A stretch of DNA of 64,000 nucleotides from Candidatus Kryptoniota bacterium (GTDB taxonomy: Bacteria; Bacteroidota; Ignavibacteria; Kryptoniales; JAKASW01). The DNA lies in NCBI GenBank assembly GCA_024641705.1, contig JAHECO010000009.1:1-64000 (forward strand), given 5' to 3'. The stretch's first letter is position 1, and every line of letters begins with the position of its first letter. Both the position numbers and the translations under genes were made by a program. The notes under the pieces were generated by a model. The model saw only the letters and a list, made by a program, of their open reading frames with translations. It made no database searches and was not told the origin of the DNA. This document shows, in pieces, positions 7,234-52,790 of this stretch.

Positions 7234-7239
7234 CAGGAA

Positions 7240-10105: not shown

Positions 10106-10120
10106 AAGGGAGGAGAGACG

Positions 10121-11404: not shown

Positions 11405-11406
11405 CC

Positions 11407-12291: not shown

Positions 12292-12314
12292 TACACAAAC
12301 GGAGAACGAAATAG

Positions 12315-13334: not shown

Positions 13335-13447
13335 AAAGTCAAACCTGTCCTGATGACAGGTCAGGAAGTCAAATGTCAAAAGTCAAAAGGCAGCCGCTCG
13401 ACGGCTGATCGCCGAAAGCTGAAAGCTATTATCAGGAGTTTCAATTA

Positions 13448-14428: not shown

Positions 14429-14438
14429 GGATTGACTG

Positions 14439-31046: not shown

Positions 31047-31279
31047 AAACATGGCCAGCATACGGGCTGTGGATAGGAACAATGATTATTCGCGCTACGG
31101 GGCACCGTTCTTGCCTCGCAGCGGGGATCAAAGACTGAATCTTCATAATCAGTAAGAGAAGGAGGTAAAAGACGCACAATGAGTGAAGAAAGGGGTAATC
31201 GGTGAAATCACCGAAACAAAGTTCAAGTTGCTCGGAAGATATTGGCAAACATCAAGCTTATCAAATAAGGAGGCCCTTT

Positions 31280-34285: not shown

Positions 34286-36778
34286 ATGCGAAAGCTTCTA
34301 TTAATAGGTTTGAGTATAAGCTTCGTAGCAGCACTCTCTTATGGACAGGTGAGAATTCGGGACAGGGCTGCTGCCATGGGCGCACGCCCTGTTATACCGA
34401 ACAATATATTCCCGAATACAGGAGAGATGATAGCGGGTAATCTCTGGGACTCGTTCATGCCCATGTCCACCGGAGTCTACTACAGTGAGATAACAAACAA
34501 TCCCAACCGTCTCTGGGACCTTGTCAGAATGGGCAACTTTGACAGACAGTGGAGTGCCCCAACTGCCATGTGGCCGGGAGGTTACCCGTTCAGCTACTTC
34601 TGGAACCAGGATTTGCAAGCAGTCGAGTACAGCCCGAATATCAACCCGACGAAGCAGCTCAGTTCCAGTACAGATTATGCTACGATGATATATACATCGA
34701 CCATAGATTCATTGTGGCAGGCAACACTCGGCATGCATTCCTATACGATCGGTCCCATTTGGGTCAATCCCGACGGGACTCCAGATCCAAACGGTACGAA
34801 CCGCTACGAGCTTTACTACGAAGCCGGTTTTCCGACTAACCTGGGTGTCTGGGTCACATTCCGTGCTATTCAATACACGCAGCCGTGGAACAACATGAAT
34901 GATTTCATACTCATCGGAGTGACATTCAAAAATTACGGCCTGCTGGACGTAGCGGCAGATGGTCATCCGACTTCCACAACAAACAAGATAAACGCCCTGG
35001 CTCTTGCCTGGCATTCGGGTGATATTGGATCGCTCATGGTCAGCACGGCAGGTGGCAGAGGAACGTCGACCTGGGGTTATGCCAGGATGTCCGGCTACAT
35101 CGCCGATAATGATCCAAACGGCAATCCATGGGACACCCAGGTTTCTTATCCTGGTGTTAATCCTGCCAATTATCCTAGTTACCCTGGGCCTAACTCCAGT
35201 GTTCCGGCAGGCAAACACGATATGGGTATCAACTCCTCAGTCTTCAATTACTACACCGATATCTGGATTGGCAAGACTTGGCTCGGTGCGAAGCAAGACA
35301 CACTCGGCCTTTACTCCGATTCTTCGGCGAGCACTATCTTCGGGACTCATCCCGTCGGGATTGGCTCGAAGCGCGGGTGGTACACCTCGTCAGAGGTCGG
35401 TGTGGGCGGTTTAGAGAATGAACTCGACGCATCCTCGATATTTACTATTGCCACAGGCGAGTGGTATCAGGACGGCGGCAAGAGCGGCGACGCCAGTAAA
35501 TTGAATCTTGCTCCTAATTCGAATTTCTTCCAATCAGGTACGGCAGGAGACGTCCTCTCGTTTGTACCGAAGGCATCGCCCGGCAAGCCGGATGGGGACC
35601 TGAAGAGTCAAACTGGTGCGCTTACGAATGTTTGGGAGAATGGCTGGACGAAGGGTTACACAGCGACCACGAACTTTGACGGGGATTCCTTCATAGGGAA
35701 TGGACCGTATTCGCTTAATGTCGGTCAAGCTGTCACAATCGTCGGTGCAGAGTACGCCGGATTCCGCATGGGCGGAATGCTTAATTCCCTCGAGGCGGCG
35801 CGCTATGCATGGGAAAACGGTGGCGTACCGTCTGGTCCCGCCGCACCGGACATGAAGACCACGATAACCGTGCCTGATAACAAAATAATGGTTCAATGGT
35901 CAAAGGTTTCGGATGAGACTTCCGATCCGAATTTCGGCGGTTATAAAATTTATCGTGCAAGCGCATTTCCGCAGTTCAGTTCTCTTAGCCTGGGAATGCG
36001 AACGATGCAACGCTATATGGACCAGATGCACGCCGGTCCTATAGACTCCACGTTTTACGATCCGGTGAATTCCAGTTTCGACGCGACAAGCGAACCGAAT
36101 TTGATGCAAGCCGGTTATTGGGGGCCGTGGCAAATCCAGGCCGTTATTCCGAAGTCCTCACTGGCGAATTATGCTCATAACGACGGCAACTTCGCTTACG
36201 CGTACAAGGACAGTTCTCTGGATGTGCTCCTCGGTTTCTCTTACTGGTACTATGTCGCTGCGTATAACAACTTGTCGACTCCGTTGACTATAAACGGCGC
36301 GACTACGAGTCACCTTGAATCAAGCAGAGTTAACGAAAACGGCGCCTCGGGTACCTGGCAAGGGACGTTCCCTTGGGCAACGCAAAGCAGCTATTATCCG
36401 ACCTCGGTTATCGGCCTGAAAGACATAGGTGCCACGATTGTCGTTCAATCACCGCCAATCAGCACCCAGGCGCTAGCCAACGGGACCGCAAAGATTGGTG
36501 TGAAGCCGAACCCGTACAAGAAACAGGCTTTCTTCGACGTCGGATTGGAACACAAGATCATGTTCTACAATCTGCCCAGCCAGTGCACAATTACCATACT
36601 GGACGTTTCAGGGCAGGTTATTGATCAGATCAATTATGCTGCCCCCACTCCAACTAACGGCACGTTCTTCTGGGACATGTATTCAAAGGACGGCCAGGAG
36701 GTGGCTAGCGGCCTGTACATTTACGTGGTGCAATACAGCACAGGTCAACAGTCCGGCTATTTTGCGATCCTCAGGTAA
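34286..36778 (+). CDS. Large secreted protein with C-terminal FlgD/T9SS-sorting-like Ig domain
   Basis: Signal peptide; C-terminus IGVKPNPYKKQAFFDVGLEHKIMFYNLPSQCTITILDVSGQVIDQINY...GTFFWDMYSKDGQEVASGLYIYVVQYSTGQQSGYFAILR. Confidence 0.7.
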   Translation: MRKLLLIGLSISFVAALSYGQVRIRDRAAAMGARPVIPNNIFPNTGEMIAGNLWDSFMPMSTGVYYSEITNNPNRLWDLVRMGNFDRQWSAPTAMWPGGYPFSYFWNQDLQAVEYSPNINPTKQLSSSTDYATMIYTSTIDSLWQATLGMHSYTIGPIWVNPDGTPDPNGTNRYELYYEAGFPTNLGVWVTFRAIQYTQPWNNMNDFILIGVTFKNYGLLDVAADGHPTSTTNKINALALAWHSGDIGSLMVSTAGGRGTSTWGYARMSGYIADNDPNGNPWDTQVSYPGVNPANYPSYPGPNSSVPAGKHDMGINSSVFNYYTDIWIGKTWLGAKQDTLGLYSDSSASTIFGTHPVGIGSKRGWYTSSEVGVGGLENELDASSIFTIATGEWYQDGGKSGDASKLNLAPNSNFFQSGTAGDVLSFVPKASPGKPDGDLKSQTGALTNVWENGWTKGYTATTNFDGDSFIGNGPYSLNVGQAVTIVGAEYAGFRMGGMLNSLEAARYAWENGGVPSGPAAPDMKTTITVPDNKIMVQWSKVSDETSDPNFGGYKIYRASAFPQFSSLSLGMRTMQRYMDQMHAGPIDSTFYDPVNSSFDATSEPNLMQAGYWGPWQIQAVIPKSSLANYAHNDGNFAYAYKDSSLDVLLGFSYWYYVAAYNNLSTPLTINGATTSHLESSRVNENGASGTWQGTFPWATQSSYYPTSVIGLKDIGATIVVQSPPISTQALANGTAKIGVKPNPYKKQAFFDVGLEHKIMFYNLPSQCTITILDVSGQVIDQINYAAPTPTNGTFFWDMYSKDGQEVASGLYIYVVQYSTGQQSGYFAILR

Positions 36779-36800: not shown

Positions 36801-37805
36801 ATGAAAAACTTAGCATTAGTAACTCTTATGGCAATGCTTTGTGCCGTGACAGGTTATGGACAGGTCGCGAAGTCCGGCATGAACGCGTTGGCATTCCTTA
36901 AGATAGGAGTCGGCGCGCGCCAGGTCTCACTGGGGTCTGCCGTAACAACTTTGACCGGTGATCCTAATCAGATATTCTGGAATCCGGCAGGTATCGTTGA
37001 CGAACCTTCCACCTTCGCAGCCAGTGTATCGTACAACAGCTGGCTGCTTGGGCTGAAACAAGAGGCAGGTGTCATCACGTACAACATGAACAAGATCGGA
37101 ACGATTGGTGTAGGATTCATGACTTTCGGTGTGACTGGGATACCGGCCGATAGAGATCTCCTTCCGGCGAATCTGTCCTACCTGCAGATTGATCAGCAGA
37201 CGTCGTCGACATACAATTATAACGACATGGCACTGATAGTGTCGTTCGCAAGGCACGTCAGCGAGGCCCTCTCCCTGGGCATCAACGTGAAGTACCTGAA
37301 TGAGACGATCGATGACATGTCTGCAGGTGCATTCGCAATCGATCTCGGTTCGGATTATCGCATAACCGACTTCTGGGATATCGGTGCAAGTATGACCAAC
37401 CTGGGATCCGATATCAAATACTATGATATCGCTGCTCCGATACCGTTGACATTCTCGGTTGGAACGTCTTTCCACCACAACTTCTCGGACCAATTGGGCG
37501 GGACCTTGTACCTGGATGTTATTCAACCGCAGGATCTGTCTCAGCTCTACTATACTGGAATCGACATCAGCGTAGTAAGTATGATCGATTTGAGGGTAGG
37601 TTATAAGTTCAATTACTCAGGTGCCAAGGACGCGGGCACGTCGGTTCGCGGACCTATCAGTACGAGTATCGAAGGAATTTCGGCCGGAATCGGTGCGAAC
37701 GTAAAGCTCGCGGATTTCGGACTGAGATTCGATTACTCGTTTACTCAGATGAGCATACTGAATAACGTCCACAGATTCACACTAAGCTTCAACTGGGGTA
37801 AATAA
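36801..37805 (+). CDS. PorV/PorQ-family outer-membrane protein
   Basis: AKSGMNALAFLKIGVGARQVSLGSAVTTLTGDPNQIFWNPAGI and beta-barrel pattern to the C-terminus FTLSFNWGK. Confidence 0.85.
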   Translation: MKNLALVTLMAMLCAVTGYGQVAKSGMNALAFLKIGVGARQVSLGSAVTTLTGDPNQIFWNPAGIVDEPSTFAASVSYNSWLLGLKQEAGVITYNMNKIGTIGVGFMTFGVTGIPADRDLLPANLSYLQIDQQTSSTYNYNDMALIVSFARHVSEALSLGINVKYLNETIDDMSAGAFAIDLGSDYRITDFWDIGASMTNLGSDIKYYDIAAPIPLTFSVGTSFHHNFSDQLGGTLYLDVIQPQDLSQLYYTGIDISVVSMIDLRVGYKFNYSGAKDAGTSVRGPISTSIEGISAGIGANVKLADFGLRFDYSFTQMSILNNVHRFTLSFNWGK

Positions 37806-38053: not shown

Positions 38054-40471
38054 ATGAAGAATGAACGGATTATCTCATTGAAACGAAGGGCATTTGTCCG
38101 TAATGTTGGTCTCTCCGCTGTGGGTCTAGCCGTATACCCTGGTACACGCAGCGGTTGGGACTTCACGACGGGAAGACGAAGAAAGAGAGTAACGTATGAA
38201 GATCCCGGTGACATCATGGGAAGCGGCACTCTTCGCCTTGGCTGCCGGGATGGTAGATCCCCGCAGGTAACGCTCTTCGTGAAGAAGGGAAGCGAGTGGA
38301 AGGGAGCGTGCGCACTGGATCAGTACGGGCTCCAGAACCTGCGGTTGTTTGCAACTCAGAATCCGTTGCACGCTGATGAGCCCATTTGGACAATGACTAA
38401 AGATTCCGATCGTTCCGTGGTTCTCACGACTGATTTGGGCGGACGGAGCCTGAGGCACGCGTTCGAGATCGTTGATAATCCGCCGCGAGTCCGAGTCAAA
38501 TCCAGCCTGTCACTGTTGGGTGACGAGCTCGTCGAGTGGTTCCAGGACTACTGGACATTTCTCTCCCCGCTTCCGCTCGATTTTTGTTTCACACCGAACC
38601 TGCGACCCGATGATGATATGGTAATAGGCGACCATGTCTTCAGAGCTCCGGCAATCATTTTGCAGAAGGACTCGACTTGGGCCGCGCTGATCCCGGATCT
38701 TGATGCACTTGGCTCGACCAAGCATCCGCACACGATGTCGGGGGACCTTGATCTCGCAGCCGGGGACCAGCCGTTTTTTGCATATGGGTTGAAGGCTTAT
38801 CAACCTGTCTCGCACACATACTATAGACATGCTGACTCGATGTTGTTCTCGCTGCCGGAGGGATCGATCGGATATTCATATGAGATACTGGCCGGTGGCG
38901 GCGAAAATCGTTCATCCCTTACCCGGCGAGTGACATCGTTTCATTGGCAGAAATACGGGAAGAAATATATCGGCAGCGTCCTGCCTCAAACTGTTCCTTT
39001 TGCCACGTATGCCGGGTATAGCTATCCGACACTTTTCGAGACGGGGGAGTTCCAGGAGTTTTCGATAGAGGGTAAGAAGGCCGGCGGGTTCAAAGCTCTC
39101 AATGACGGAGGTTATTTCAGGAGGCCTGAGAAGGTCCTCCTGAATCAAGCATGGTACAACAACATGCGCAGCTCGTACGGGCTTTTTCATTTCGGTAGAA
39201 AATTACACAACGAGATCTGGCAGGAACGCGCGGCGACTATAAAGCGCTGGACGCTTTCGGCACCGCAAACAAGCGGCCTCTTTCCTGCAATGTATGATTA
39301 TGACAAGGACGAATGGTGGGGCTCAATCCCTCGTCTTAATGGCGGTCGCGATAGGATAGAGTGCGTTAATGCGGCATGGACATCGGCTTGGTTGCTGTGG
39401 TGGAGCAGGGATTTCGGAAGAGACGATATCTCCATGGGTTACGTCCGGGCGCTTGCCGATTTCTTCATCGCAAATCAGCTTCCTTCGGGAGCCATTCCGG
39501 CCTGGTTTGATCTGTCCGGCTCCAAGGGAACACCACCCAAACCCGTGGAGACCTTGAAGGAGTCTGCCGAGACAGCGGGATCGGCGTTGCTCATCGGGGA
39601 GTTGGCCACGCAGACGAAGGAGCCGCAATATATCAGGGCTCTGACCCGCGCTGCCGATTTTCTGATTCGGGAAATTATACCCGAAATGAAATACTGGGAC
39701 TTCGAGACATTCTGGTCGTGTTCCTGGAAACCGCTCGACATGAGGGACCCTCATACCGGTGTTCTTCCACAGAATACTTTCTCGGCATACTGGACGGTGC
39801 ATACCCTGCTGAGGGCGTATGAGGCCACCGGTCTGCGCAAATATCTTGAGGGTGCGCTTGAATCTCTCGATGTGCTGAATTTCTACCAGCAGGTCTGGAA
39901 TCCCCCATGGCTTGACCTTTACGCATTTGGCGGTTTTGGCGTGATGAACACGGATGGGGAATGGAACGATGCACGACAGGCTGTGTTTGCGCCCGTATAT
40001 TTGGATGCATATAGACTGACAGGAGAAAGTGAATATTTCGAGCGGGGTGTTGCAGCGCTCAAGGCAGCCTTCACCCTGATGGCGATTCCCGAAAACAGAG
40101 AGGTTAGTCCCAGAACCTGGAATGCACTGCCGACCGGGCTGTGCCCCGAAAATTTTGCCCACACCGGATACAACGGCGTGTTTGCGAGGTCAGACTCGGA
40201 CTGGGGCGAGGCAGGTGCTCTTTCTGCAGCAGCACTCGTGGAAAACACGTTTGGCGGCGCGTATCTGGATACTAAGAGAGAAAAAGGTTTTGGTATTGAC
40301 GGTTGTGAAGTAAGATCTCTGGAGAAGTCGGGGACCGGCTTCCGGATCGAGGTGAGCGAGCTCCTTGGATACAGCAGGGAGATCAGCATAGTGACCGACA
40401 AAGGGAGACGCCGGACATTAGCTCTGCGGGCAAACCAGTCAACCTCCGCATTTATCGAGATGGACAACTGA
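38054..40471 (+). CDS. Exported (Tat-like signal) protein of unknown family, probable alpha/alpha-toroid glycan-active enzyme
   Basis: N-terminus KRRAFVRNVGLSAVGLAV; C-terminal half with helical-toroid-like repeats (ADFFIANQLPSGAIPAWFDLSGS, AETAGSALLIGELATQTKEPQYIRALTRAADFLIREI). Confidence 0.55.
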   Translation: MKNERIISLKRRAFVRNVGLSAVGLAVYPGTRSGWDFTTGRRRKRVTYEDPGDIMGSGTLRLGCRDGRSPQVTLFVKKGSEWKGACALDQYGLQNLRLFATQNPLHADEPIWTMTKDSDRSVVLTTDLGGRSLRHAFEIVDNPPRVRVKSSLSLLGDELVEWFQDYWTFLSPLPLDFCFTPNLRPDDDMVIGDHVFRAPAIILQKDSTWAALIPDLDALGSTKHPHTMSGDLDLAAGDQPFFAYGLKAYQPVSHTYYRHADSMLFSLPEGSIGYSYEILAGGGENRSSLTRRVTSFHWQKYGKKYIGSVLPQTVPFATYAGYSYPTLFETGEFQEFSIEGKKAGGFKALNDGGYFRRPEKVLLNQAWYNNMRSSYGLFHFGRKLHNEIWQERAATIKRWTLSAPQTSGLFPAMYDYDKDEWWGSIPRLNGGRDRIECVNAAWTSAWLLWWSRDFGRDDISMGYVRALADFFIANQLPSGAIPAWFDLSGSKGTPPKPVETLKESAETAGSALLIGELATQTKEPQYIRALTRAADFLIREIIPEMKYWDFETFWSCSWKPLDMRDPHTGVLPQNTFSAYWTVHTLLRAYEATGLRKYLEGALESLDVLNFYQQVWNPPWLDLYAFGGFGVMNTDGEWNDARQAVFAPVYLDAYRLTGESEYFERGVAALKAAFTLMAIPENREVSPRTWNALPTGLCPENFAHTGYNGVFARSDSDWGEAGALSAAALVENTFGGAYLDTKREKGFGIDGCEVRSLEKSGTGFRIEVSELLGYSREISIVTDKGRRRTLALRANQSTSAFIEMDN

Positions 40472-40475
40472 TCCG

Positions 40476-41522
40476 ATGAAACCCTCTCGTCTGCAAACTG
40501 TGTTGGACTGCTCACCCGCGGATCGGGTGCCGTTTTTACCCGCCATATACGAGCACAAAGCCTGGTTCGTCAAAGACACCCCTTCAAATGTGGCGAGTGA
40601 CGTGGATTTATTTACAAGGGCGGTGCTTGCCGAGTACGAAGCTCTTCAACCCGACGCCCTCACGATCGGGATCGATGTGTACAACGTTGAGGCGGAAGCG
40701 ATGGGATGCGAAGTCATCTACTACGATGGGGACGACACATCAATACCGGCTATCGGCACAGACGGCGCTGCCTTCACGGAAGAAGACAATTTCTCGACTG
40801 TCGACCTCCCTGATCCGTATAAAGACGGCAGAATGCCTATCAACCTGGAAACGGCCAGAAATGTCAAGAGGGCAATTGCCGATGAGGTTCCGGTTCGCGG
40901 CGCACTTTCAGGACCCTTCTCATTAGCGGCGAATCTGGTCGGGCCGGAGCGCCTTTTTATGCTCACAGTTACGAACCCGGAGTTCGTCAAAGGGCTGCTC
41001 TTCTTTGCCTCGGAGGCCGCAAAAAGATTCGGCGAGGCCTACATAAAGGAGGGATGCGGGGTGGTAGTTTTTGACTCTCAAGCTTCGCCGGAACTGCTGT
41101 CGCCGAAGATGTACAGGGAATTTGTTTTGCAGCCGACCAAGAGCCTAATCGAGCATTTCCACAAACTGGGCGTCAAACATGTGCCGTTGATCATCGGGGG
41201 CAATACTACCAGGATTCTCAGCGCCTATCTTGAGACAGGGGCGAACAACATCCTTTGTGACTTCTCCGCCAACGTGGATGAGTTCCTGAGCGAGTGTTCT
41301 GAAAGGAAGCGTGCCTTCCGGCGGAATATTGACTCCACGGATTTCCTGGCCGCCCCGGCCTCCGTTCTCCATGAGCGGGCAGTCGCGGCCCTCGAGGAAT
41401 CGCGCGGTTACCCGGGCTATGTCCTTGGAACCGGAGTTGTCCCATACGGCACTCCGTTGGAGAGCCTTTTGGCAATACGAGATGCCATGTTCGAGTACGA
41501 CAACAAACTGAGCAGGCAATAA
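40476..41522 (+). CDS. UroD-family protein 2 (apparently lacking MtaA-type zinc ligands)
   Basis: TVLDCSPADRVPFLPAIYEHKAW, GALSGPFSLAANLVGPERLFMLTVTNPEFVKGLLFFASEAAKRFGEAYIKEGCG; UroD-like fold pattern. Confidence 0.8.
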   Translation: MKPSRLQTVLDCSPADRVPFLPAIYEHKAWFVKDTPSNVASDVDLFTRAVLAEYEALQPDALTIGIDVYNVEAEAMGCEVIYYDGDDTSIPAIGTDGAAFTEEDNFSTVDLPDPYKDGRMPINLETARNVKRAIADEVPVRGALSGPFSLAANLVGPERLFMLTVTNPEFVKGLLFFASEAAKRFGEAYIKEGCGVVVFDSQASPELLSPKMYREFVLQPTKSLIEHFHKLGVKHVPLIIGGNTTRILSAYLETGANNILCDFSANVDEFLSECSERKRAFRRNIDSTDFLAAPASVLHERAVAALEESRGYPGYVLGTGVVPYGTPLESLLAIRDAMFEYDNKLSRQ

Positions 41523-41641
41523 TGCCGAATAGTCTCCGCCCAGTTTTACGGGGTAGCTGAGAAGTTCAACGCGCTTCAAAAGTAATGACAGAAATCGATC
41601 CTCTACTGCAACCAATGAATAGGACAATTGAGGGAAGAACC

Positions 41642-42283
41642 ATGAGTGAATTAGAGCACCTAGCACAACTAATGGAAGAAGGAAATGCCGCGACTGTTGC
41701 GGAGGTAACGCAGCAGCTGCTTAATGCGGGAATGGCGCCCCAGACTATATTGAACGACGGACTGATCGTAGGAATGGGAGTGGTCGGCGAAAAAATGCGT
41801 ACCGGGGAGATGTACTTGCCTGAGGTTCTGCAGTCGGCAACCGCGATGCACGCCGCATTAAAGCTGCTGAAACCCCTGCTTGCAAGGGACGGAGTCAAGC
41901 CGCTCGGCAAGATAGTAATGGGCACCGTGAAAGGAGACGTCCATGACATCGGCAAGAACCTGGTCGGTATACTGCTCCAGGGTGCCGGGTTCGAGATAGT
42001 TGATCTCGGCGTGAACGTGTCACCGGCAAAGTTCATCGAGACTATCGAGCAGCAAAAGCCTGCGCTTCTTGCTTTATCAGCTATGCTTACGACCACTATG
42101 TTGAACATGAAGACAACCATCGAGGCGATCAACAATGCGGGGCTTCGTTCAAAAGTGAAGATTATTGTCGGCGGAGCCCCCGTTAGTGAAAAGTTTGCGG
42201 GAGAGATTGGTGCAGATGCATACGCCCGTGATGCCGTAAAGGCGGTCGGCAAAGTTAAAGAATTGCTTGCGGTGGCGGCGTAA
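41642..42283 (+). CDS. MtaC-like corrinoid (B12-binding) protein
   Basis: MtaC-like four-helix N-domain and GKIVMGTVKGDVHDIGKNLVGILLQGAGFEIVDLGVNV (DxHxxG cobalamin-binding motif), VKIIVGGAPVSEKFAGEIGADAYARDA. Confidence 0.93.
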   Translation: MSELEHLAQLMEEGNAATVAEVTQQLLNAGMAPQTILNDGLIVGMGVVGEKMRTGEMYLPEVLQSATAMHAALKLLKPLLARDGVKPLGKIVMGTVKGDVHDIGKNLVGILLQGAGFEIVDLGVNVSPAKFIETIEQQKPALLALSAMLTTTMLNMKTTIEAINNAGLRSKVKIIVGGAPVSEKFAGEIGADAYARDAVKAVGKVKELLAVAA

Positions 42284-42287
42284 AATC

Positions 42288-43676
42288 ATGGAAGCATTGA
42301 AAACACACAAGACATTCAGAAAACTGGCGGTCAGTAACTCATCCGAGCTCATGTTCGGAAGGGCTGCGGCGCCGGCTTCGTGCGGCTTCGGCCTGGAAGT
42401 AGGATCCGGCAAGGTCTATCCGGAAATAAATTTCACTTTACCTACAATGCTTATCGAAGATAAAACCTGGGGGGCCATCGTCTCGCAATATGAGGAGATC
42501 GGCGAGATGATTGCGCGGGCTGCGAAACGCCTTAAGCTTCCCGGATTAATGGTTGAATTCGAGCTGCTCCCCCCAATGACGGAGAACCCTGCATGGGGTG
42601 CGGAGATAACCGGGATTCTTCATAATGCACTGGAACGCGCACATAAAGAGTACGGTTTGCCGTGTGCTTTGCGCGTGACGCCGACGGACATCCGGGACGC
42701 CTACCGACCTCCAGTTCTTCGCAGCGGCAAGGAATGGGACAGGCTTATGGAGTCGTTCGAGCAATGCGCAGTCGCAGGGGCCGATATACTATCTATTGAA
42801 TCGGTGGGAGCCAAGGAAGTCAATGATGAAGCGATGATGCGCGGGGATATTGGCGGGATAATGTTTGCTCTTGGCGTGCTTGCTCCGAATGACATGGAAT
42901 TTCTATGGGATCACATCTTGGCGGTATGTTCTGCCCATGAAGTTGTGCCGGGAGGCGACTCCGCTTGCGGTTTCGCTAACACCGCCATGCAGCTGTCGTC
43001 ACAGGGTATGTTGCCCGAAGTCCTTGCCGCAGTGGTGCGGGCAGCAAGTGTGGTCCGAAGCCTTGTCGCTTACGAACGGGGAGCATACGGCCCGTCCAAG
43101 GACTGTGCATATGAGGGACCTGTCATAAAAGCCATAACGGGGGCCCCCATAGCGATGGAAGGGAAATCTGCGAGCTGCGCGCATTTCAGTCCGGTCGGGA
43201 ACGTCGCGGCTTCGATGTGTGACCTCTGGAGCAACGAGTCGGTTCAAAACATTCGCCTGCTTTCGGGTTCAGCGCCTGAGGCGTTTATGGAGCTCCTGGC
43301 CTACGACTGTCGAATATTCAACAAGGCTCTCGAGGCACGAACGGAAAAAGAATATCAAAGCCTGCTTGTCGAATCGGATATTCACCTGAGTCCGCAGGCA
43401 CTCGTACTCTCCCCCGAATCCACGATGCGAATTGCTTCGGCAATTGTGGCAAAGGAAACGCACTACCGGATGACCATCGCCGCTTCGCGGGAAGCGGTAT
43501 CGATAATTCGCGATGCTTTGGGAAAAGGGAATCTCGAGCTGAGCTCTAAAGAATCATCCTGGCTCGATCGGATCGACCATGCGCTTGACTCCCTCCCGGA
43601 CGATGAGATGGCCTTGGTCGAATCCATGAGCGCATCTTATGGTCATCTGTTCCTGCCTGAAAGTTACGGACTATAA
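42288..43676 (+). CDS. MtaB-like methanol:corrinoid methyltransferase family protein
   Basis: GSGKVYPEINFTLPTMLIED, PGGDSACGFANTAMQLSSQGMLPEVLAAVVRA, GPSKDCAYEGPVIKAITGAPIAMEGKSASCAHFSPVGNVAASMCDLWSNESVQNI match the MtaB family. Confidence 0.88.
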   Translation: MEALKTHKTFRKLAVSNSSELMFGRAAAPASCGFGLEVGSGKVYPEINFTLPTMLIEDKTWGAIVSQYEEIGEMIARAAKRLKLPGLMVEFELLPPMTENPAWGAEITGILHNALERAHKEYGLPCALRVTPTDIRDAYRPPVLRSGKEWDRLMESFEQCAVAGADILSIESVGAKEVNDEAMMRGDIGGIMFALGVLAPNDMEFLWDHILAVCSAHEVVPGGDSACGFANTAMQLSSQGMLPEVLAAVVRAASVVRSLVAYERGAYGPSKDCAYEGPVIKAITGAPIAMEGKSASCAHFSPVGNVAASMCDLWSNESVQNIRLLSGSAPEAFMELLAYDCRIFNKALEARTEKEYQSLLVESDIHLSPQALVLSPESTMRIASAIVAKETHYRMTIAASREAVSIIRDALGKGNLELSSKESSWLDRIDHALDSLPDDEMALVESMSASYGHLFLPESYGL

Positions 43677-43708
43677 TAATACAACCAATAAAATCGTAGG
43701 AGCAATTT

Positions 43709-46042
43709 ATGATGAGAGCGACACTGAAAAGGTGTGTTTTCTTCGCTTTCGTATTGTGTCTTGTCTTTGACCCGATGTCTTTACGGGCTTCCACACTGCG
43801 TGAGGCCATGAAGAACGTGAAAGTCGTGGCCTATCCGGCGGGAGGCAGGGAAGTGGACCTGACTGTGGCGAACGCGGTCCTGCGCGAACTCGCGCCGCAA
43901 GCCAAAGTCGTCAGGATGCAGAAGGGAACATCCTCGAATGAAACGGGAGTATTTCGTATTTCCGTTGCCGACGAAGATTTTGCGCCGCTTCCGGGGAGGA
44001 GTCAACTGAAATCGGACGGACAGGAATGGATGTATTTCAAAATCAGTGCCGCCGGCACAGGTGAGCTTGTTGTTTCCAGTGAACATCTGCTCTACGCAAT
44101 GTATTGCCAGGTGAGGAGATGGAGCGACCGAAACATAGACGAATTTGTCGATGGAAAAGTGATGACGCCCGCTTTCAAGTGGCTGAGAGATTACAGCGAT
44201 TTTCTGGTTGGGACACGCCGATACGCCAAAGGTTTTGATCCGGCCGCGTACGTCAGGCAAGCGGCCAGCGAGGGTTTCACACATATAACGGTTAACGGGC
44301 TCGGCGTTCCGCATCCGTTCGAGGAAGGTCCCCCCGGAGACAAGTACTCGGAGTTTTATGATTATACACCTGACATGGACCAGTTCGTGTCCAGCAAACT
44401 TATTAAGGGCTACTACCCCGCTTATTATCTGCAGGCGAATCTCAATTTCCTGAAGCGCAACGTCGAGCTTGCAAAGGAATATGGCCTGGCGCCGGGACTG
44501 GAAATCTGTTCGCCGCGGACAATGCCGCATGATTTTTGGAATAAATATGGTTTCCTCCGTGGCGCAAGAGTTGACCATCCGAGGGAAAGCTACCTCCCGA
44601 GATACACGCTGACAATCGCCCATCCTGCAGTTCAGGAGCATTATCGCGAGCTGGTGGCCAAATTGATGACGGCGGTCCCCGACCTCAGCTTCATCGAGAT
44701 ATGGTCGGACGACAGCGGGTCCGGATTTGAATTTGTCAACAGGTTGTATGCCGGACGCAATGGGGGTCCATATCTCGTTCGTGAGTGGAAAGACGACGAT
44801 TACGTTGCGAGGAAAGCCGCCAGCAACGTGCTTACTTACTATCATCTTATACTCAATGAGGCCAGGAAATTCAATCCGAAATTCCGGCTGATCGTCGACC
44901 TTGGCTCTTTCACCCCGCTGGAATTGAAGTACATTATCCCCGGCCTGGGGAACGGCATAGACGTGGGCGACTGGTCGGGTCAGTCAAAGGACCAGATTGC
45001 CTTCAACCAGAAGATGCAGAAGGTCTGGGAGAAGTACGGTGCGGAAACGCAGATGACTATCAATGCCACAAACGTCAACTCTATCGGCGAGATCTTTCCG
45101 CGCTTCGTGTACTCACAGTTGGCACAAGCTTACAAGGACCACTACCGCTATGCTTTGTCCGAAACGACGCCGAACTCCCTCGATCCATACGATATAAACG
45201 GTCAGGTGGTAGCCGAATTTCAAATGGACCCGAAGCTGACGCTGAATGATATCCTTTCCGATGTCGCGGACAGATGGGTCGGAAAGAAATATGCTTCGAG
45301 CTTGATGCACATCTGGTCCATCGCAGACTCATCGGCATCGGGTTTCCCGGACGGCGTTCCGTACTCTACGTTCGCATATCCGTGGTACAAGCTCACCACG
45401 AGGCCGTTTGTTCCCAACATCGAGGCGATTCCGGACAGCGAACGCGCATACTACGAGAAATTTATGCTGACTACTTTCAACAACCCGACGCGTATCGACT
45501 TGAATAACGACATGTTGTGGAACTTCCTCACTGTGCAACAGGCGGCCGATAAACGGGAACAATTCGACCGCGATGTCCTGCCGCAGGTAAACCGAGCGAT
45601 CGGGTTGGCGAAAGCGACTCTCGCTTTGGTGTCACCCCGGAGCGAGCAGGCAAAGGTATTCGAGGACGTCCTTATACGATTACAAACATACAAGAACTAC
45701 TCCATGACGTTGCGCGACGTCGTTGCCTGGATCGAAGGCGTTCATGGATACATTGAAGCCAAGACCCCCACTGAGAAGCAGTTGTATCGCTCAAAAGTCA
45801 GGGCGATGGTGGAGTCGGAAATTGCCAACACGAAAGATCTTCTCGACCTGTGGGAACACAGCCCGGTCGAGTTTATGGCGGTGTCGAAGATCGGAGAGAA
45901 CCTGCACGTTTTTGGGGAAGATCTTGGGAACCTGCTGAAGAAGAAGATAGCCCTGATGGAAGAACACGAGAACGACGCGCCGTATATCGATCCTAATTTT
46001 ATGTGGCACATGCCGAAGCATTACCCGCCGACCCTTCAGTGA
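43709..46042 (+). CDS. Exported paralog of 27975..30293; candidate glycosidase
   Basis: Signal peptide RCVFFAFVLCLVFDPMSLRAS; IWSDDSGSGFEFVNRLYAGRNGGPYLVREW and colinear similarity to the C-terminus. Confidence 0.6.
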   Translation: MMRATLKRCVFFAFVLCLVFDPMSLRASTLREAMKNVKVVAYPAGGREVDLTVANAVLRELAPQAKVVRMQKGTSSNETGVFRISVADEDFAPLPGRSQLKSDGQEWMYFKISAAGTGELVVSSEHLLYAMYCQVRRWSDRNIDEFVDGKVMTPAFKWLRDYSDFLVGTRRYAKGFDPAAYVRQAASEGFTHITVNGLGVPHPFEEGPPGDKYSEFYDYTPDMDQFVSSKLIKGYYPAYYLQANLNFLKRNVELAKEYGLAPGLEICSPRTMPHDFWNKYGFLRGARVDHPRESYLPRYTLTIAHPAVQEHYRELVAKLMTAVPDLSFIEIWSDDSGSGFEFVNRLYAGRNGGPYLVREWKDDDYVARKAASNVLTYYHLILNEARKFNPKFRLIVDLGSFTPLELKYIIPGLGNGIDVGDWSGQSKDQIAFNQKMQKVWEKYGAETQMTINATNVNSIGEIFPRFVYSQLAQAYKDHYRYALSETTPNSLDPYDINGQVVAEFQMDPKLTLNDILSDVADRWVGKKYASSLMHIWSIADSSASGFPDGVPYSTFAYPWYKLTTRPFVPNIEAIPDSERAYYEKFMLTTFNNPTRIDLNNDMLWNFLTVQQAADKREQFDRDVLPQVNRAIGLAKATLALVSPRSEQAKVFEDVLIRLQTYKNYSMTLRDVVAWIEGVHGYIEAKTPTEKQLYRSKVRAMVESEIANTKDLLDLWEHSPVEFMAVSKIGENLHVFGEDLGNLLKKKIALMEEHENDAPYIDPNFMWHMPKHYPPTLQ

Positions 46043-46140
46043 CAATCTTTTTGTCGCGGGCCGGGATCGGTTGTTCCGATTTGCGGATGCGGGAGGAGCA
46101 AGTCGAATTTTATAAATAGATCATACAGGAGAAAAGACTT

Positions 46141-47160
46141 ATGAAGTTACCACTGTTGCCGATCACCCTTGTTGGGAGCTATTCTCTGCCGCACTGGCTG
46201 GATGTAGCCCGTGAGGACGCGAGGGAAAAGAAACTCACTGAATCGGAACTTGAAGAGGCCCATGACAATGCCGTCAAATCTTGCATCAAGGACCAGGAGA
46301 TGGCGGGCCTCGATGTTATAACGGATGGCGAGCTGAGACGCGAAACTATGGTCTACTTCTTTTCCAAACGGATCCATGGGTTTGACAACAAAGGTAAGAT
46401 GAAATCTATCGGCAACCTCGATCCCACGATACAGATGCCCGACCCCGTAATCGTCGACAAGGTGCGCCGTTCCGGGAGCATCGGGATGGCAAAACATTTT
46501 GCATTTCTGAAGGAATATGCCTCGGCATATCCCAAAGTGACAATCACCGGTCCTCAGATGCTCGCGAAGCGCGCGACTAACGAGTATTACAAAGAGGAGA
46601 AGCAGTTGGTCTTTGATCTGGCAGACGTCCTTAATGCTGAACTCAAGGAAGTGGTCGATGCGGGTTGCGAGTTCGTCCAGGTGGACGAGCCCGTGTGGGT
46701 CGGTTATCCCCAGGATATGCCATGGCTTGTCGAGGCGTTCAACAGGATGGTGGACGGTGTCAATGCCAAGATTGCGCTTCACGTATGCTATGGGAATTAT
46801 AAGTTAAAGAAGCTCTTTTCGGGCACATACGCTGATTTATTTCCCGAAATACTGAAGGTGGACGCGTCTCAGCTCTGCCTGGAGTTTGCGGTGAGCAACA
46901 TGGAGCCGCTCCAACTTTTCAGGGACTACAAGACGAATATGGAAATTGCGGTGGGAGTTGTGGACGTGAAAGATGAAAAGGTGGAGACTCCGGAGCTTGT
47001 GGCCGATCGGATTCGACAGGCGCTCAAGGTGATACCGAAAGAAAAGGTTTGGATAACCACAGACTGTGGCATGAAATTCATGCCGCGCGACCGGGCATTC
47101 GGAAAGCTGAAAGCTATGGCGGACGGCACGAAAATGGTCCGGAAAGAACTCGGCGCATAG
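46141..47160 (+). CDS. MetE C-terminal-domain-only (core) methyltransferase
   Basis: TLVGSYSLPHW, DVITDGELRRETMVYFF, FVQVDEPVWVG, ALHVCYGNY, VDASQLCLEFAV, VWITTDCGMKFMPRDRAFGKLKAM: cobalamin-independent methionine synthase catalytic barrel without the N-terminal barrel. Confidence 0.85.
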   Translation: MKLPLLPITLVGSYSLPHWLDVAREDAREKKLTESELEEAHDNAVKSCIKDQEMAGLDVITDGELRRETMVYFFSKRIHGFDNKGKMKSIGNLDPTIQMPDPVIVDKVRRSGSIGMAKHFAFLKEYASAYPKVTITGPQMLAKRATNEYYKEEKQLVFDLADVLNAELKEVVDAGCEFVQVDEPVWVGYPQDMPWLVEAFNRMVDGVNAKIALHVCYGNYKLKKLFSGTYADLFPEILKVDASQLCLEFAVSNMEPLQLFRDYKTNMEIAVGVVDVKDEKVETPELVADRIRQALKVIPKEKVWITTDCGMKFMPRDRAFGKLKAMADGTKMVRKELGA

Positions 47161-47187
47161 CGATTCCTAAACCATGATGAGAACTTG

Positions 47188-48771
47188 ATGAGCGATATGT
47201 TTTTGAAATCAGGGAACGCGGCTCTCGACGCACTCTTTCCGAAAGTCAAGGGCTTCTTCGCATTGAATGCAGTGGATTACAACGTGATGGGAAAGAGCAC
47301 GCACGGCTACCGAGATCCTGATGCACCGAGCATCTGGATCCGCGGCGTGGCGGACTCGCTTCGGGCATACAAATATTGGGAGAAGGACCTCAAGAGCATC
47401 GTCGAGGTTTTTGCGGAGACCCAGACTGCCCGCGGATGGCTATATGATTACTTCACGATGACGCCCGAGAAAGTGCCGTGCGAAAAGGAGAACTGGGCAA
47501 AGTTCGTCCGCGTCCCGAACGAAGCCGATGTCGAATTCAGATTCGTGAAAGCCGTATACCAGGTTTGGCAGGCGACGGGAGACGATGCATGGCTGAAGAA
47601 GATGCTTCCCGTGATGGAACGGGCCCTCGAGTATATCCTCACAGATCCATGGCGCTGGGACAAGAAGACCGGGCTGGTCAAGCGTCCGTACACGGTCGAT
47701 ACATGGGATTTCGACTACACGGCCGGGCATCACAGCTGGCTGAATTTCCAAATTGACGATCACACGTTCTGGGGCATCATGCACGGAGACAACTCCGGGT
47801 ATTATGAAGCGTTCGTTCTCATGAGCTTGATGCATGCTCGTTTGCGAAATCCGAAACGTGCACGATATTGGAAAACAGTCGCTTCGAAATTGAGGACCAG
47901 GGCAAACAAAACCTGTTTCAACGGAAAGTTTTATACTCACCGTGTACCGATTGTGCCCTTGAAAATCGACGGAGTGGACGAGAGCCGTCAGCTCAGCCTG
48001 AGTAACCCGATGGATATTAACAGGGGCATGCCGACGCACGACATGGCTGTATCGATAATAAGGGAATATCAGTCGAGGGCTTCAGAGACGAAAGCATTCG
48101 CGGAATGGTTCAGCATTGATCCTCCGTTCCCGGCCGGAATTTTCGGAGACGAAAAGATCGTCGAAGGTGCTTACTGCAACGGCGGGATAATGCCTCTCGT
48201 CGGCGGCGAACTGGCCAAAGCTGCGTTCGATCACGGTTTCGAGAAGTACGGCTTCGATACGCTTCTTCGGTATGCCAGGTTGACCGAGAAGGGTGAATCG
48301 TTTCTCTGGTATTTCCCGGATGGAACGCATGCTACGGTGGAGACAAGCACCAGTCCCGATGCCTCACCGGGTGATACGTGGGGCTCTTCTTCGATGATAT
48401 ACGCGCTCGTGGAAGGGCTGGCAGGAGTGACCGACAGAAGCTGTCTGTTCAGAGAGCTGCGGCTCAGTCCCCGGTGGGAATCGGCGGGCACCGACGAAGC
48501 AGGAGTACGCTGCACATACGAGACTTCGGGAAGTGCGTTCGAATACTCGTTTATGCACGAAAGATCACGAAAGAAGATTGAACTGCGGTTAGCTGGAAAG
48601 TCGAACGTGCAATTGCACCTGCTCCTTCCCGAGAATTCTCGTGCCGTATCCGTGAAAGCGAATCGGAGAAGCGTGCGTTTCATCAACACCGCGGTCGAGC
48701 AGAGCCACTATGTAGACGCCGATCTCAGAGTCGGAGGACACGCAGTGGTAGAGGTGGAGTACCGAAACTGA
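47188..48771 (+). CDS. Six-hairpin (alpha/alpha) glycosidase-like protein
   Basis: DYFTMTPEKVPCEKENW, YTAGHHSWLNFQIDDHTFWGIMHGDNSGYYEAFVLMSLMHARL, GSSSMIYALVEGLAGV and a C-terminal beta domain. Confidence 0.6.
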   Translation: MSDMFLKSGNAALDALFPKVKGFFALNAVDYNVMGKSTHGYRDPDAPSIWIRGVADSLRAYKYWEKDLKSIVEVFAETQTARGWLYDYFTMTPEKVPCEKENWAKFVRVPNEADVEFRFVKAVYQVWQATGDDAWLKKMLPVMERALEYILTDPWRWDKKTGLVKRPYTVDTWDFDYTAGHHSWLNFQIDDHTFWGIMHGDNSGYYEAFVLMSLMHARLRNPKRARYWKTVASKLRTRANKTCFNGKFYTHRVPIVPLKIDGVDESRQLSLSNPMDINRGMPTHDMAVSIIREYQSRASETKAFAEWFSIDPPFPAGIFGDEKIVEGAYCNGGIMPLVGGELAKAAFDHGFEKYGFDTLLRYARLTEKGESFLWYFPDGTHATVETSTSPDASPGDTWGSSSMIYALVEGLAGVTDRSCLFRELRLSPRWESAGTDEAGVRCTYETSGSAFEYSFMHERSRKKIELRLAGKSNVQLHLLLPENSRAVSVKANRRSVRFINTAVEQSHYVDADLRVGGHAVVEVEYRN

Positions 48772-48925: not shown

Positions 48926-51196
48926 ATGAAGAGACGCGAGTTTATGGTCAAATCGACACTTAGTGCCATCGCATTGGGTGGATTAAAGCCGTCTTTGCCG
49001 GAAATCTTTTCCACTCGCCCAGTGGATGAAAGGGGACGGCAATTGCCGCAGGACAAGAAGTCGTTAGTCTCTGCCTGGGCGGAAGAGGCGCCATCCAACC
49101 AACGCATGAATGCGGATTATATCTCCTATCTACCAGGAGTGGAATACTTCCTGATTGGGAACGGTGACATTCAGGGAGTAGTGCAGCTCTGTAAAGATTC
49201 CACCGGACCGGATCAAGGCTCTTTCTTCGGGTTCACCATTATGAGTGCCGAACACTTCACGCAGAAGTGGACTACGTTTCTATACAGCGCCGGGAGAGGT
49301 TTCGGGAATACACTTGCCTGGCTGGGAGTGGACGAAAACTCCTACGGAATTTCCTCGAAAAGTCTCAAGAATGTGGCCTGGAAGTATATCGACGGTGTGC
49401 CTGTCGTCAGTGTCGTATGGATTGAGAAGAACTGCGAAATGGAGGAACAGTTCTTCGTACCGAAGGATGGACCGATTTTGTTCAGGCGCCTGCATGTAAG
49501 AAACCTGGACGTTGAAAGCCACCGGATATCGGCAGGACTCACCCTTTACCCCAACATTGCGTTCTTCGATGAAGTCTATACGAATGCCGAGGACAGGACA
49601 GCGAATGCAGAGGGTTTTACGAAGCTGAAGATGTATTGCTATGAAAAGAAGATAGAGACTTTGGGCCGTTATACGATAAGAGCTCAGCAGGGTGTGATCG
49701 CACCTGGTTCGGAAACGGAGGCAACATTCGCGTACTACCTTGATGGTGGTGAATCGCTTATCAGGAAGAATGACCTGAAGACTTTTTGGGCTGGAGCGGT
49801 CGACTACTGGAGGGAGAAGAACACTCTTTCTACCGGCAAACCCAGTCTTGACAGCGCCTGGAATCTATCGAGAACTGGTCTCAAAGCTCACGTAGCCAGC
49901 AACGGTAAGCGCGATTCTGGAATCTGGGAATACGGCATGGAATGGGTGAGGGACGATGTCATGATCATGACAGCGTTTCTCCAGAGCGGCTTCTTCACAG
50001 AAGCAAAAACCCTGCTCGAAAGGATGTTCACGAAGTTCGTAACTGAAGACGGCAGGACAGTCGAGTCGAGTCAGGTGTTCGCGTTCAATTTCACGGAGAT
50101 AGATCAAAACGGCGAGCTGCTCTACGGCACCTGGGCATATCTCTGCTGGACCGGAGACTATGCGACGGTACGAAAGTACTGGGAGAAGATCGTTGCACTG
50201 GCAGAGTTGCCGCTGAGGCCTTTCTTCCGTCAGCCGGATTCAGGACTGCTAAGCAACGTCCGCGAATTCTGGGAGAGATCGGACTCGTTCGGAGTGAAGC
50301 CGGGGTATGAACTCGCTTATCAGTTTTGGGTGATACTGGGACTCGAAAAAAGTGCTGAAGTTGCCGACAAGTTGGGCCATGGTCGCTATGCGGCCCGATG
50401 GCGAAAAGCGTCAAAAGAGATCAGGGAAGCGTTTCTGGGTAATCCGAAGTTCAGATTGATAGAAGATGGCCACTTCATTAAGAGGAGGACTCTTAGTGGC
50501 GAGTGGCAAAAGGTGATGATCCCGCCGAACAGAAAGAATATGCCCGCGGGAACGCCTATCGCCGTGGAAGAGACACCTCTGACGGAACCCGATACAAGCG
50601 AAGTCCTTCCGATCATGTTTGAAATGATAGACCCGAAAAGCGAACTTGCCGCCAAAACCTTGAGCTGGGTTGAGTCGCTCTGGAACGAGAGATGGAAGAT
50701 CGGCGGCTACGAGCGGTACAACAGCTCGAGCGAGCCCGAACCCCCGGGGCCGTGGCCGTTCGCATCCCTGTTCGTGGCGCAGGCTAATTGGGAGGCGGGT
50801 AATTTCGAAAAAGGAATGCGAGTAATTGACTGGCTTTCGACAATTAACGGCGGTCTCTCGGGAGGATGGTTCGAGTACTATCCGGATGGGCACCCATCGG
50901 TAGGAATTATCGGATGGAATTGGGCAGAGGTCGTCCGTTTTGTCGTCGATCATATCCTCGGCGTTCGCCCGCAGCTTGACAAATTGGTGATCAGGCCGAG
51001 GTTGGGGGCGGGGATCGACACTGTGAAATCCCGCGTGAAGGTTAGAGAGATGAGGCTCGATTTGACGCTTACTGCTTCCGGCAACGAAAGCGCAGCGACC
51101 GTAAATGGTAAAGGGATTGGCCTGAATGACGGGCAGCTTGTACTTCCTTACCGGCGGGGAGCGGATTTAAAAGTAAACGTGAACATCAAGAGTTGA
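48926..51196 (+). CDS. Exported (Tat-like) six-hairpin glycosidase-like protein
   Basis: N-terminus MKRREFMVKSTLSAIALGG; RDSGIWEYGMEWVRDDVMIMTAFLQSGFFTEAKTLLERMFTKFV and ISWNWAEVVRFVVDHILGVRP-like terminus (IIGWNWAEVVRFVVDHILGVRPQLDKLVIRPRL). Confidence 0.65.
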   Translation: MKRREFMVKSTLSAIALGGLKPSLPEIFSTRPVDERGRQLPQDKKSLVSAWAEEAPSNQRMNADYISYLPGVEYFLIGNGDIQGVVQLCKDSTGPDQGSFFGFTIMSAEHFTQKWTTFLYSAGRGFGNTLAWLGVDENSYGISSKSLKNVAWKYIDGVPVVSVVWIEKNCEMEEQFFVPKDGPILFRRLHVRNLDVESHRISAGLTLYPNIAFFDEVYTNAEDRTANAEGFTKLKMYCYEKKIETLGRYTIRAQQGVIAPGSETEATFAYYLDGGESLIRKNDLKTFWAGAVDYWREKNTLSTGKPSLDSAWNLSRTGLKAHVASNGKRDSGIWEYGMEWVRDDVMIMTAFLQSGFFTEAKTLLERMFTKFVTEDGRTVESSQVFAFNFTEIDQNGELLYGTWAYLCWTGDYATVRKYWEKIVALAELPLRPFFRQPDSGLLSNVREFWERSDSFGVKPGYELAYQFWVILGLEKSAEVADKLGHGRYAARWRKASKEIREAFLGNPKFRLIEDGHFIKRRTLSGEWQKVMIPPNRKNMPAGTPIAVEETPLTEPDTSEVLPIMFEMIDPKSELAAKTLSWVESLWNERWKIGGYERYNSSSEPEPPGPWPFASLFVAQANWEAGNFEKGMRVIDWLSTINGGLSGGWFEYYPDGHPSVGIIGWNWAEVVRFVVDHILGVRPQLDKLVIRPRLGAGIDTVKSRVKVREMRLDLTLTASGNESAATVNGKGIGLNDGQLVLPYRRGADLKVNVNIKS

Positions 51197-51206
51197 GGAA
51201 TACTGC

Positions 51207-51737
51207 GTGAATCGCAGACGCTTCGTAAATTCTACACTCGGCATTGCGGCAGGGTTTGGACTGTCCCGCAAATTGAACCCGCTGTTGGGCGGGGATTCGA
51301 CGACCGGGAATTTGTTAGAACGGACTGTTCAATCCCACAATCCTTTCACACCTTCTGATAGCAGGTTCTGGTCATTCGTGCGGAAACAGTTTCCGCTTTC
51401 AGACGAAAGGACATATCTGAACACGGGTGGCCTCGGCGCTTCTCCGTACCCGGTCATAGATGCCGTTAGGGCGGAGATGAATGAGCTTGAAAGAATAGCC
51501 GAAACCGGTCATACCGATGCATTGTGGAAGGAGATAAAGTCTTCGGCCGGCGAGCTCCTCGGCTGCGACGCCGACGAGCTTGCTTTCGTCCGCAACGCCA
51601 CCGAAGGCATTAACGTCGTAGCAAACGGTCTTCCCTTGAAAAGCGGCGACGAAATCATCACCTCGACGCATATCTATAATAACATAGAAGAGGTGAATCG
51701 GCTTCTTGACAATATCAGGAGACTATCCGTTGCTTAG
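51207..51737 (+). pseudogene. Class V aminotransferase with apparent internal deletion of the catalytic core; Tat-like signal
   Basis: N-part TYLNTGGLGASPYPVIDAVRAEMNELERIAETG...ADELAFVRNATEGINVVANGLPLKSGDEIITS joined directly to a family-typical C-terminal end THIYNNIEEVNRLLDNIRRLS. Confidence 0.65.
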
Positions 51738-51764: not shown

Positions 51765-52790
51765 ATGAATTCACTCGAGCGAGTAAGAAACGTAATCGCC
51801 GGGAAGCCTGTCGATCATTTGCCGGCGCAGCCGATGTTGATGATGTTTGCGGCGAAGCACGCAGGGATCGAGTTTATCGACTACACAAAAGACGGGCGGC
51901 TCATGGCCGAGTGTCAACTTAGAGTGGCCGAGGACTATGGGATAGATTGCCTCCTAACATGCTCGGATCCTGCCCGCGAGGTGATTGATATTGCCGGAGA
52001 AGGATCCATCGACTGGTTCTCGGACCAGGGTCCCGCGATCAATGAAGAGCGGGCCGCCCTTACCGATAAGTCACTCCTCAAGACCTTCAAGGTCCCGGAC
52101 CCAACGGGGGGCGGTCGAATGCACGACCGCATTAAGGGAATCGAGATTATGTATGAGCATGTACGCGGCGAAATGTCGATCGTCGGATGGATTGAGGGGC
52201 CGCTGGCACTTGCGGCGGAACTGAGGGGAATCAACAACATCATGTTTGACCTGATAAGTGACGCGCCGTTTGTAGACGATCTACTTGATTTTTGTGCCGA
52301 GGCGGCCATAGCATATGCCACCCCGCAGATCGAAGCGGGTGCGGACACCATAGGCATGAGCGATGCAGCTGCGAGCGTAATCGGTCCGAAGTTGTATGAG
52401 CGGTTTCTCCAACCGCGTCAGAAACGGGTTCTGGCCGCGATCAAGGAAAAACATCACGACGCCATCACGCGTCTCCATATGTGTGGGAACACAGACGTTT
52501 TGATACCCAAGATGAGTGAGCTGCCGGTCGATATCTTCGAGCTCGATTTTCCTGCGGATCTCGAGAATGCGCGCGGAAAACTCGGGCCCGACAAAATCAT
52601 CAGTGGTAATGTTTCGACCGTTTACGATCTCCTGGAGGGCCCTCCGGAACGTGTTTACGAATCGGCGAGGCGGTGTCATCTCATAAGCGGAAAGAAACAT
52701 ATAGTGAATTCAGGCTGTGAAGTTTCACCTCTTACACCTCCAGAAAACCTAAGGGCACTAGTGCGTTATTCTCGTGAGAATCAACCGTGA
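51765..52790 (+). CDS. UroD/MtaA-type methyltransferase-like protein 3
   Basis: LERVRNVIAGKPVDHLPAQPMLMMFAAKHAGI, AITRLHMCGNTDVLIPKM, KIISGNVSTVYDLLEGPPERVYESARR, HIVNSGCEVSPLTPPENLRALVRY. Confidence 0.88.
   Translation: MNSLERVRNVIAGKPVDHLPAQPMLMMFAAKHAGIEFIDYTKDGRLMAECQLRVAEDYGIDCLLTCSDPAREVIDIAGEGSIDWFSDQGPAINEERAALTDKSLLKTFKVPDPTGGGRMHDRIKGIEIMYEHVRGEMSIVGWIEGPLALAAELRGINNIMFDLISDAPFVDDLLDFCAEAAIAYATPQIEAGADTIGMSDAAASVIGPKLYERFLQPRQKRVLAAIKEKHHDAITRLHMCGNTDVLIPKMSELPVDIFELDFPADLENARGKLGPDKIISGNVSTVYDLLEGPPERVYESARRCHLISGKKHIVNSGCEVSPLTPPENLRALVRYSRENQP

Follow-up and report, generated by a model that had tools for sequence, protein, structure and literature searches.

The DNA analysed here comes from Candidatus Kryptoniota bacterium (GTDB lineage Bacteria; Bacteroidota; Ignavibacteria; Kryptoniales; JAKASW01; assembly GCA_024641705.1, contig JAHECO010000009.1, positions 1 to 64,000 of the forward strand), and this whole stretch of 64,000 nucleotides is referred to as the window. 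Between positions 40476 and 47160, profile searches place five consecutive genes on the plus strand, for a UroD-fold protein, MtaC, MtaB, an exported 777-aa protein and a core MetE (Table 1), with intergenic gaps of about 120, 4, 32 and 98 nt. An earlier note had described such a run on one strand, and both the run and its families (UroD, MtaC of the B12-binding type, MtaB and Meth_synt_2) are borne out. The order of the five genes is more than chance: two other genomes of the genus show the same synteny, and the block of UroD, MtaC, MtaB and C5 (the family of the 777-aa protein) is found again in other genera.

Table 1. Genes of the window discussed in the text, with the evidence for each assignment
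Feature	Position	Strand	Evidence or remark
UroD-superfamily methyltransferase, H-C-D zinc triad	24647-25840	+	Carboxylate variant, as reported for O-demethylases
Gfo/Idh/MocA oxidoreductase	26122-27138	+	Profile match
Xylose-isomerase-like TIM barrel (AP_endonuc_2)	27148-27978	+	Profile match
C5 family, cytoplasmic-type paralogue	27975-30293	+	No visible signal peptide
Outer-membrane-type protein, SusC-like place in block	31202-34246	+	CarboxypepD_reg N-terminus
Secreted protein	34286-36778	+	FlgD-Ig-like end
PorV-like outer-membrane protein	36801-37805	+	Just below Pfam cut-off
Exported 805-aa protein, probable alpha/alpha toroid	38054-40471	+	Weak likeness to glucuronyl C5-epimerase C-terminus, E 0.0019, below cut-off
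UroD-fold protein without zinc ligands	40476-41522	+	PF01208, 1e-44
MtaC-like corrinoid protein	41643-42283	+	B12-binding_2 and B12-binding, DVHDIGKN motif
MtaB	42288-43676	+	ATG start; PF12176, 2e-158
C5 family, exported paralogue, 777 aa	43709-46042	+	Predicted GH89/GH67/GH20-like three-part fold
Core methionine synthase (MetE catalytic domain alone)	46141-47160	+	PF01717, 3e-46
GH116/GH127-like toroid protein, kept in block	47185-48771	+	Weak match
Exported GH15-like toroid protein	48926-51196	+	TIGR01577, 3e-12, below cut-off
MtaA/CmuA-like methyltransferase, intact H-C-C zinc triad (thiol-type)	51765-52790	+
SSF sodium:solute symporter	52852-54768	+	Profile match
FAA-hydrolase, then MR/MLE-type enolase	54808-56810	+	54808-55710 and 55707-56810

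To judge from its predicted gene content the locus resembles a polysaccharide utilization locus (PUL) but is not a proven one. SusD gave no match in the window and the SusC/SusD pair is not found there; among the candidates, the gene at 31202 carries only CarboxypepD_reg and that at 34286 only FlgD-Ig. Several glycosidase assignments in the locus fall below Pfam cut-offs, and many of the neighbours (M20, MLE, DHO_dh, cyclase) are diagnostic of no sugar. The gene for the exported 805-aa protein is syntenic in L008 and L009, and in L167 the FAA-hydrolase and the MR/MLE-type enolase are again found close to the cytoplasmic C5 gene. Some other features of the window can be mentioned. A 176-aa N-terminal part of a class-V aminotransferase lies at 51207-51737 and looks truncated, the same block in L168 having a full 420-aa gene (5896-7158). 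An L-rhamnose isomerase and a PhyH-type dioxygenase are found upstream of the block (17501-18778 and 18938-19765), and PhyH-like genes recur in exported-C5 blocks of relatives (L165, L168). Positions 5827-15680 hold two sets of 2-oxoacid dehydrogenase genes, the first for E3, a fused E1, and E2, the second for E1 alpha, E1 beta and E2, interspersed with genes for lipoate ligase and lipoyl synthase.

The reading frame of MtaC opens at 41585, with the likely ATG at 41643. Both of its B12-binding domains are present and the DxHxxG motif is intact; it scores 199.1 bits against TIGR02370, below the cut-off of 215.3, and the nearest model is MtgC with 220.4 bits against a cut-off of 370. MtaB covers its Pfam profile in full length (2-459 of 460) and aligns along its length with the MtaB of M. 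barkeri (PDB 2I2X), to which it is 38% identical, the identity to a Firmicutes MtaB being 46%. Its score against the methanol-specific equivalog NF040651 is 429.7 bits, below the cut-off of 720. The zinc ligands E170, C226 and C272 (numbering of window:42291-43673) are invariant in 80 of 80 MtaB sequences; in the M. barkeri enzyme we take the ligands to be Glu164, Cys220 and Cys269. Only four positions in the alignment set the MtaB clade of the window apart from four methanol-type references, and the conserved site favours methanol as the substrate. The clade consists of 16 Ignavibacteriota/Bacteroidota sequences (SH-aLRT 99) and groups with Acidobacteriota sequences (support 98); two Bacillota sequences and M. 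barkeri fall elsewhere in this quick tree, in which the M. barkeri branch is long. The phylogeny that had been proposed as a check thus places the MtaB of the window outside the acetogen and methanogen clades. A search for viral relatives of MtaB found none. A second MtaB copy in the same genus (G011, contig C40, L016 522-896) is broken, with one TGA and one TAG in the matched stretch, and lies next to a pair of large proteins of which one is exported.

The genome has seven UroD genes, and the three of them that lie in the window are, by their putative zinc-site residues, three different kinds, one without any zinc ligands. The earlier note had placed additional UroD/MtaA-type genes at 24.6 and 51.8 kb; both are present, but the MtaA-type H-C-C site is found only in the gene at 51765, while that at 24647 has H-C-D. 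The protein from 51765 scores 123.8 bits against the MtaA equivalog, below the cut-off of 400, though its His-x-Cys...Cys site is complete. The protein from 40476 has I-G-V at the places of the MtaA His-Cys-Cys, as I-G-V or I-G-I is found in 9 of 9 proteins of its type in the alignment, and it was rejected as an MtaA-type protein since the entire zinc site is lost. In the UroD superfamily the thiol enzymes have His-Cys-Cys triads and the O-methyltransferases carboxylate or non-coordinating residues (PMC10418091), and CdmB is zinc-free (PMC13222342). By the rule of PMC10418091 the proteins from 24647 and 40476 would look oxygen-side and that from 51765 thiol-side. A PDB search for a solved structural relative of the UroD proteins gave no matches. 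An orthologue of 24647 adjoins MtaC/MtaB in L018, L020, L046 and L010. A second corrinoid cluster in the genome of the window (contig C2, L175 1440-4918) has a UroD protein, a homocysteine S-methyltransferase and an MtaC-like protein, with MtaB absent. Other MtaB loci (L050, L051, L054, L056, L061, L068, L083, L089) have homocysteine S-methyltransferase, DUF1638 and/or RACo. Their UroD proteins, of which there are several, have H-D-H, D-D-H or H-C-N sites, and the arrangement as a whole is different and diverse. Cluster C15 was rejected as a UroD group and is a PocR/AraC regulator.

The exported 777-aa protein had been called a putative exported glycosidase, and of this description the predicted glycosidase-like fold holds, but the identity comes from fold comparison only, as Pfam gives no match even at E<1. 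The C5 family has no PDB sequence matches either. A single-sequence AlphaFold model (pLDDT 34) was discarded for one built from a 37-member alignment, which reached pLDDT 85.8 and pTM 0.89. The best Foldseek matches of this model are human NAGLU (GH89), GH67 alpha-glucuronidases, GH20, GH115 and GH84, with a best E of 4e-13 (to 1e-12), a TM of about 0.5 and an identity of about 10%; viral fold matches are weak. Aspartate D335, following barrel strand 4, is invariant. C5 thus agrees with GH67 and GH89 in fold and lacks a match to them as sequence families, and we read it as a predicted glycosidase of the GH89/GH67/GH20-type fold group. The two paralogues of the window, 43709 and 27975, are 36% identical, and 27975 is 56-58% identical to the proteins encoded immediately after MtaB in other genera.

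The core MetE at 46141 is the sole PF01717 gene of the genome in a profile search, and its residues are intact when compared with the list in PMC7857596 (zinc H214, C216, E248 and C309; homocysteine S13, E64 and D182). It was rejected as the only methionine synthase, as a split MetH with an activation domain is found elsewhere in the genome, together with MTHFR. Core MetE enzymes are described as using the methyl group of methylcobalamin, and probably that of corrinoid proteins (PMC7857596, PMC7005905). Core MetE adjoins an exported C5 in 10 genomes, all 10 of them MtaB-positive; in other genera core MetE and MtaB stand at separate loci and the link is one of co-occurrence. CODH/ACS (PF03598) was looked for in 19 genomes of the group and is missing from every one, and an acetogenic use of the methyl group was rejected on this ground. 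The Wood-Ljungdahl pathway, which is the host setting of MesB and MesC, is by the same measure not found. Because the residues of core MetE are intact, the gene adjoins exported C5 in MtaB-positive genomes and CODH/ACS is missing, a methyl flow to homocysteine fits better than acetogenesis, and homocysteine, reached via core MetE, is the likely sink.

A scan of GTDB species genomes gave 80 MtaB loci. About 10 of the Ignavibacteriota/Bacteroidota loci have UroD and MtaC ahead of MtaB and a C5 gene after it, which outside the genus of the window is of the cytoplasmic type. The MtaB-C5 neighbours in relatives are Hepar_II_III-like (PL-like), GH3, ROK, PfkB, LacD-type aldolase, glycerate kinase, GHMP kinase and SSF proteins; they hint at uronate-, deoxysugar- or galactose-type steps, differing by locus. 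Within the genus of the window the MtaB set is part of a second block, which also comprises an outer-membrane protein, a PorV-like protein, exported C5, core MetE and toroid proteins. In other genera this second block, with core MetE beside exported C5, has no MtaB, and those genomes have MtaB elsewhere. Among 398 sampled genomes of the phylum, MtaB is found in 5, from five genera and four families, and C5 in 10; C5 is present in 5 of 5 MtaB-positive and 5 of 393 MtaB-negative genomes (Fisher p 3e-9, uncorrected for phylogeny). The two co-occur even when on different contigs, and C5 was found in 6 of 6 further genomes of close relatives. Beyond the phylum, C5 is found together with MtaB in three Opitutales genomes and one KSB1 genome; among MtaB-bearing Armatimonadota, Sumerlaeota and Acidobacteriota no C5 was found, bar weak matches in two Acidobacteriota genomes. 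PocR-type AraC regulators adjoin MtaC/MtaB in an acetogen and in Opitutales (L063, L065, L072, L076, L090, L093, L096). The gene-neighbourhood check suggested in the earlier note shows MtaB/MtaC to be repeatedly and specifically tied to glycan-type genes. The linkage of the corrinoid methyl-transfer genes with glycan genes is real, it recurs, and it is a new arrangement of known parts.

RACo/RamA (PF14574) was searched for in the window and in the genome and none was found, so that the absence of a RamA-like activator, remarked on before for the window, extends to the genome. Among six genomes tested it is missing in four (G000, G002, G011, G021) and present in two (G031, G033), a point that weighs against the C1-salvage reading set out below. 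Methanol from a uronate methyl ester had also been suggested; for pectin this is not an obvious source, and as a general one it was rejected, as of 19 genomes only 8 have a full-length pectinesterase and 6 gave no match to one at all, and the genome of the window has one partial match.

We hypothesize that the set serves anaerobic C1 salvage as a module within a glycan-catabolic locus, and we judge the chances of this to be about even. Exported C5 and toroid-type glycosidases would break open a methylated glycan on the outer side of the cytoplasmic membrane, and the cell would take up the products. MtaB would move the methyl group, taken either from methanol that the glycan has released or from a methoxy sugar, to the Co(I) of MtaC, and the UroD-fold partners from 24647 and 40476 would assist or serve as alternative methoxy demethylases. 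Methyl-MtaC would then pass the group to homocysteine via core MetE, and possibly also to a thiol via the H-C-C protein from 51765, so that it would feed methionine/SAM rather than acetogenesis. The reading is based on gene content, residue conservation, recurrence and co-occurrence; from these we infer in which direction the methyl group flows, what the substrate is and that MetE uses methyl-MtaC. That methyl capture is tied to glycan catabolism, as the earlier note proposed, gains from the recurrent linkage. An O-methyl sugar as substrate of MtaB does not, given the fully conserved zinc site only four positions away from methanol-type references, and since the site is nearly identical to that of methanol enzymes a bulky sugar ether may not fit. 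The site of MtaB favours methanol as the donor, and the UroD triads leave room for direct ether demethylation.

This last point leads to a reading that overlaps with C1 salvage and does not exclude it, namely that the UroD proteins from 24647 and 40476 are the true ether demethylases and share MtaC, with MtaB handling methanol separately. Their H-C-D and zinc-free sites agree with O-demethylases of the superfamily, in which the zinc ligands are substituted by carboxylates or absent, as opposed to the H-C-C thiol enzymes (PMC10418091; zinc-free CdmB, PMC13222342), and the 40476-type gene keeps its place beside C5 in L167 despite MtaB being elsewhere. Yet the UroD fold is functionally broad, a PDB match for a relative is absent and the 24647-type gene adjoins MtaB in only a part of the clade, and we find this account possible but doubtful. 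We are inclined against plain scavenging, in which free environmental methanol enters C1 metabolism through MtaB and MtaC and the glycan genes are neighbours only through shared plant- or alga-derived matter. It would explain the methanol-type site and the patchy occurrence of MtaB in the genus (3 of 13 genomes), but not that C5 co-occurs completely with MtaB in four families of the class, also where the two are unlinked, nor that the MtaB-negative congeners tested (G001, G006, G008) are also C5-negative. The MtaB clade is moreover separate from that of acetogens, and the PocR regulator of acetogen and Opitutales loci is absent from it. Very improbable is a reverse flow, where methyl-MtaC loaded from methanol methylates a metabolite or thiol for biosynthesis: the acceptor-side enzymes are there (the H-C-C thiol-type methyltransferase and core MetE), but the chemistry of MtaB is donor-side and the neighbours are mainly catabolic.

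The polysaccharides of plants, algae and bacteria often carry methyl ethers. If the C1-salvage reading is true, a glycan-linked corrinoid route would explain how methylated sugars can be used free of oxygen, which the described P450 route needs. It would also mean that core methionine synthases occur beyond the Wood-Ljungdahl setting known for MesB and MesC, and the linkage to C5, a glycosidase-like family undescribed before, would be a marker for finding such loci. The most specific form of the proposal, an oxygen-independent corrinoid route that takes the methyl group of an O-methyl sugar via MtaB or the UroD partners to MtaC and on to homocysteine by core MetE, in non-acetogens and together with a new family of GH67/GH89 fold, is tentative and rather unlikely.

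With the MtaBC(A) systems of Methanosarcina and acetogens the window has in common the fold and zinc ligands of MtaB, a cognate corrinoid protein and the adjacency of the genes. It differs in its MtaB, which with 38% and 46% identity stays below the NCBIfam equivalog cut-off, in the absence of CODH/ACS, in the RamA-type activator missing from 4 of 6 genomes, and in the glycosidase-like C5 that is always present in its clade. The corrinoid O-demethylases of methoxylated aromatics and the system for chloromethane (Odm/Vdm/Mtv/Mto, Cdm) share with it a corrinoid protein and UroD-superfamily sites other than H-C-C, but the window has sugar-polymer neighbours and MtaB, and no PF00809-type H4F methyltransferase is seen in the locus. 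The core methionine synthases MesA-MesD/core-MetE resemble 46141 in the lone catalytic domain with its zinc and homocysteine residues kept; they are described with corrinoid methyl donors (PMC7857596, PMC7005905), and the likely donor here is MtaC. MesB and MesC have been found only with the Wood-Ljungdahl pathway, whereas CODH/ACS is absent here. GH67 alpha-glucuronidase and GH89 alpha-N-acetylglucosaminidase share with the predicted C5 an N-terminal alpha/beta domain, a TIM barrel and a helical C-terminus, but in sequence C5 matches no family of Pfam or PDB, and the identity in the fold comparison is only about 10%. For a corrinoid demethylation route in a polysaccharide locus the earlier note knew of no precedent, and our non-exhaustive search of open-access full-text literature likewise found none described. 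The nearest case is the P450-dependent demethylation of 6-O-methyl-D-galactose in porphyran degradation, which has the handling of a methoxy sugar built into polysaccharide catabolism (PMC10033563) as the window would have. The porphyran route is oxygen-dependent and releases formaldehyde, whereas the corrinoid transfer proposed for the window would need no oxygen.
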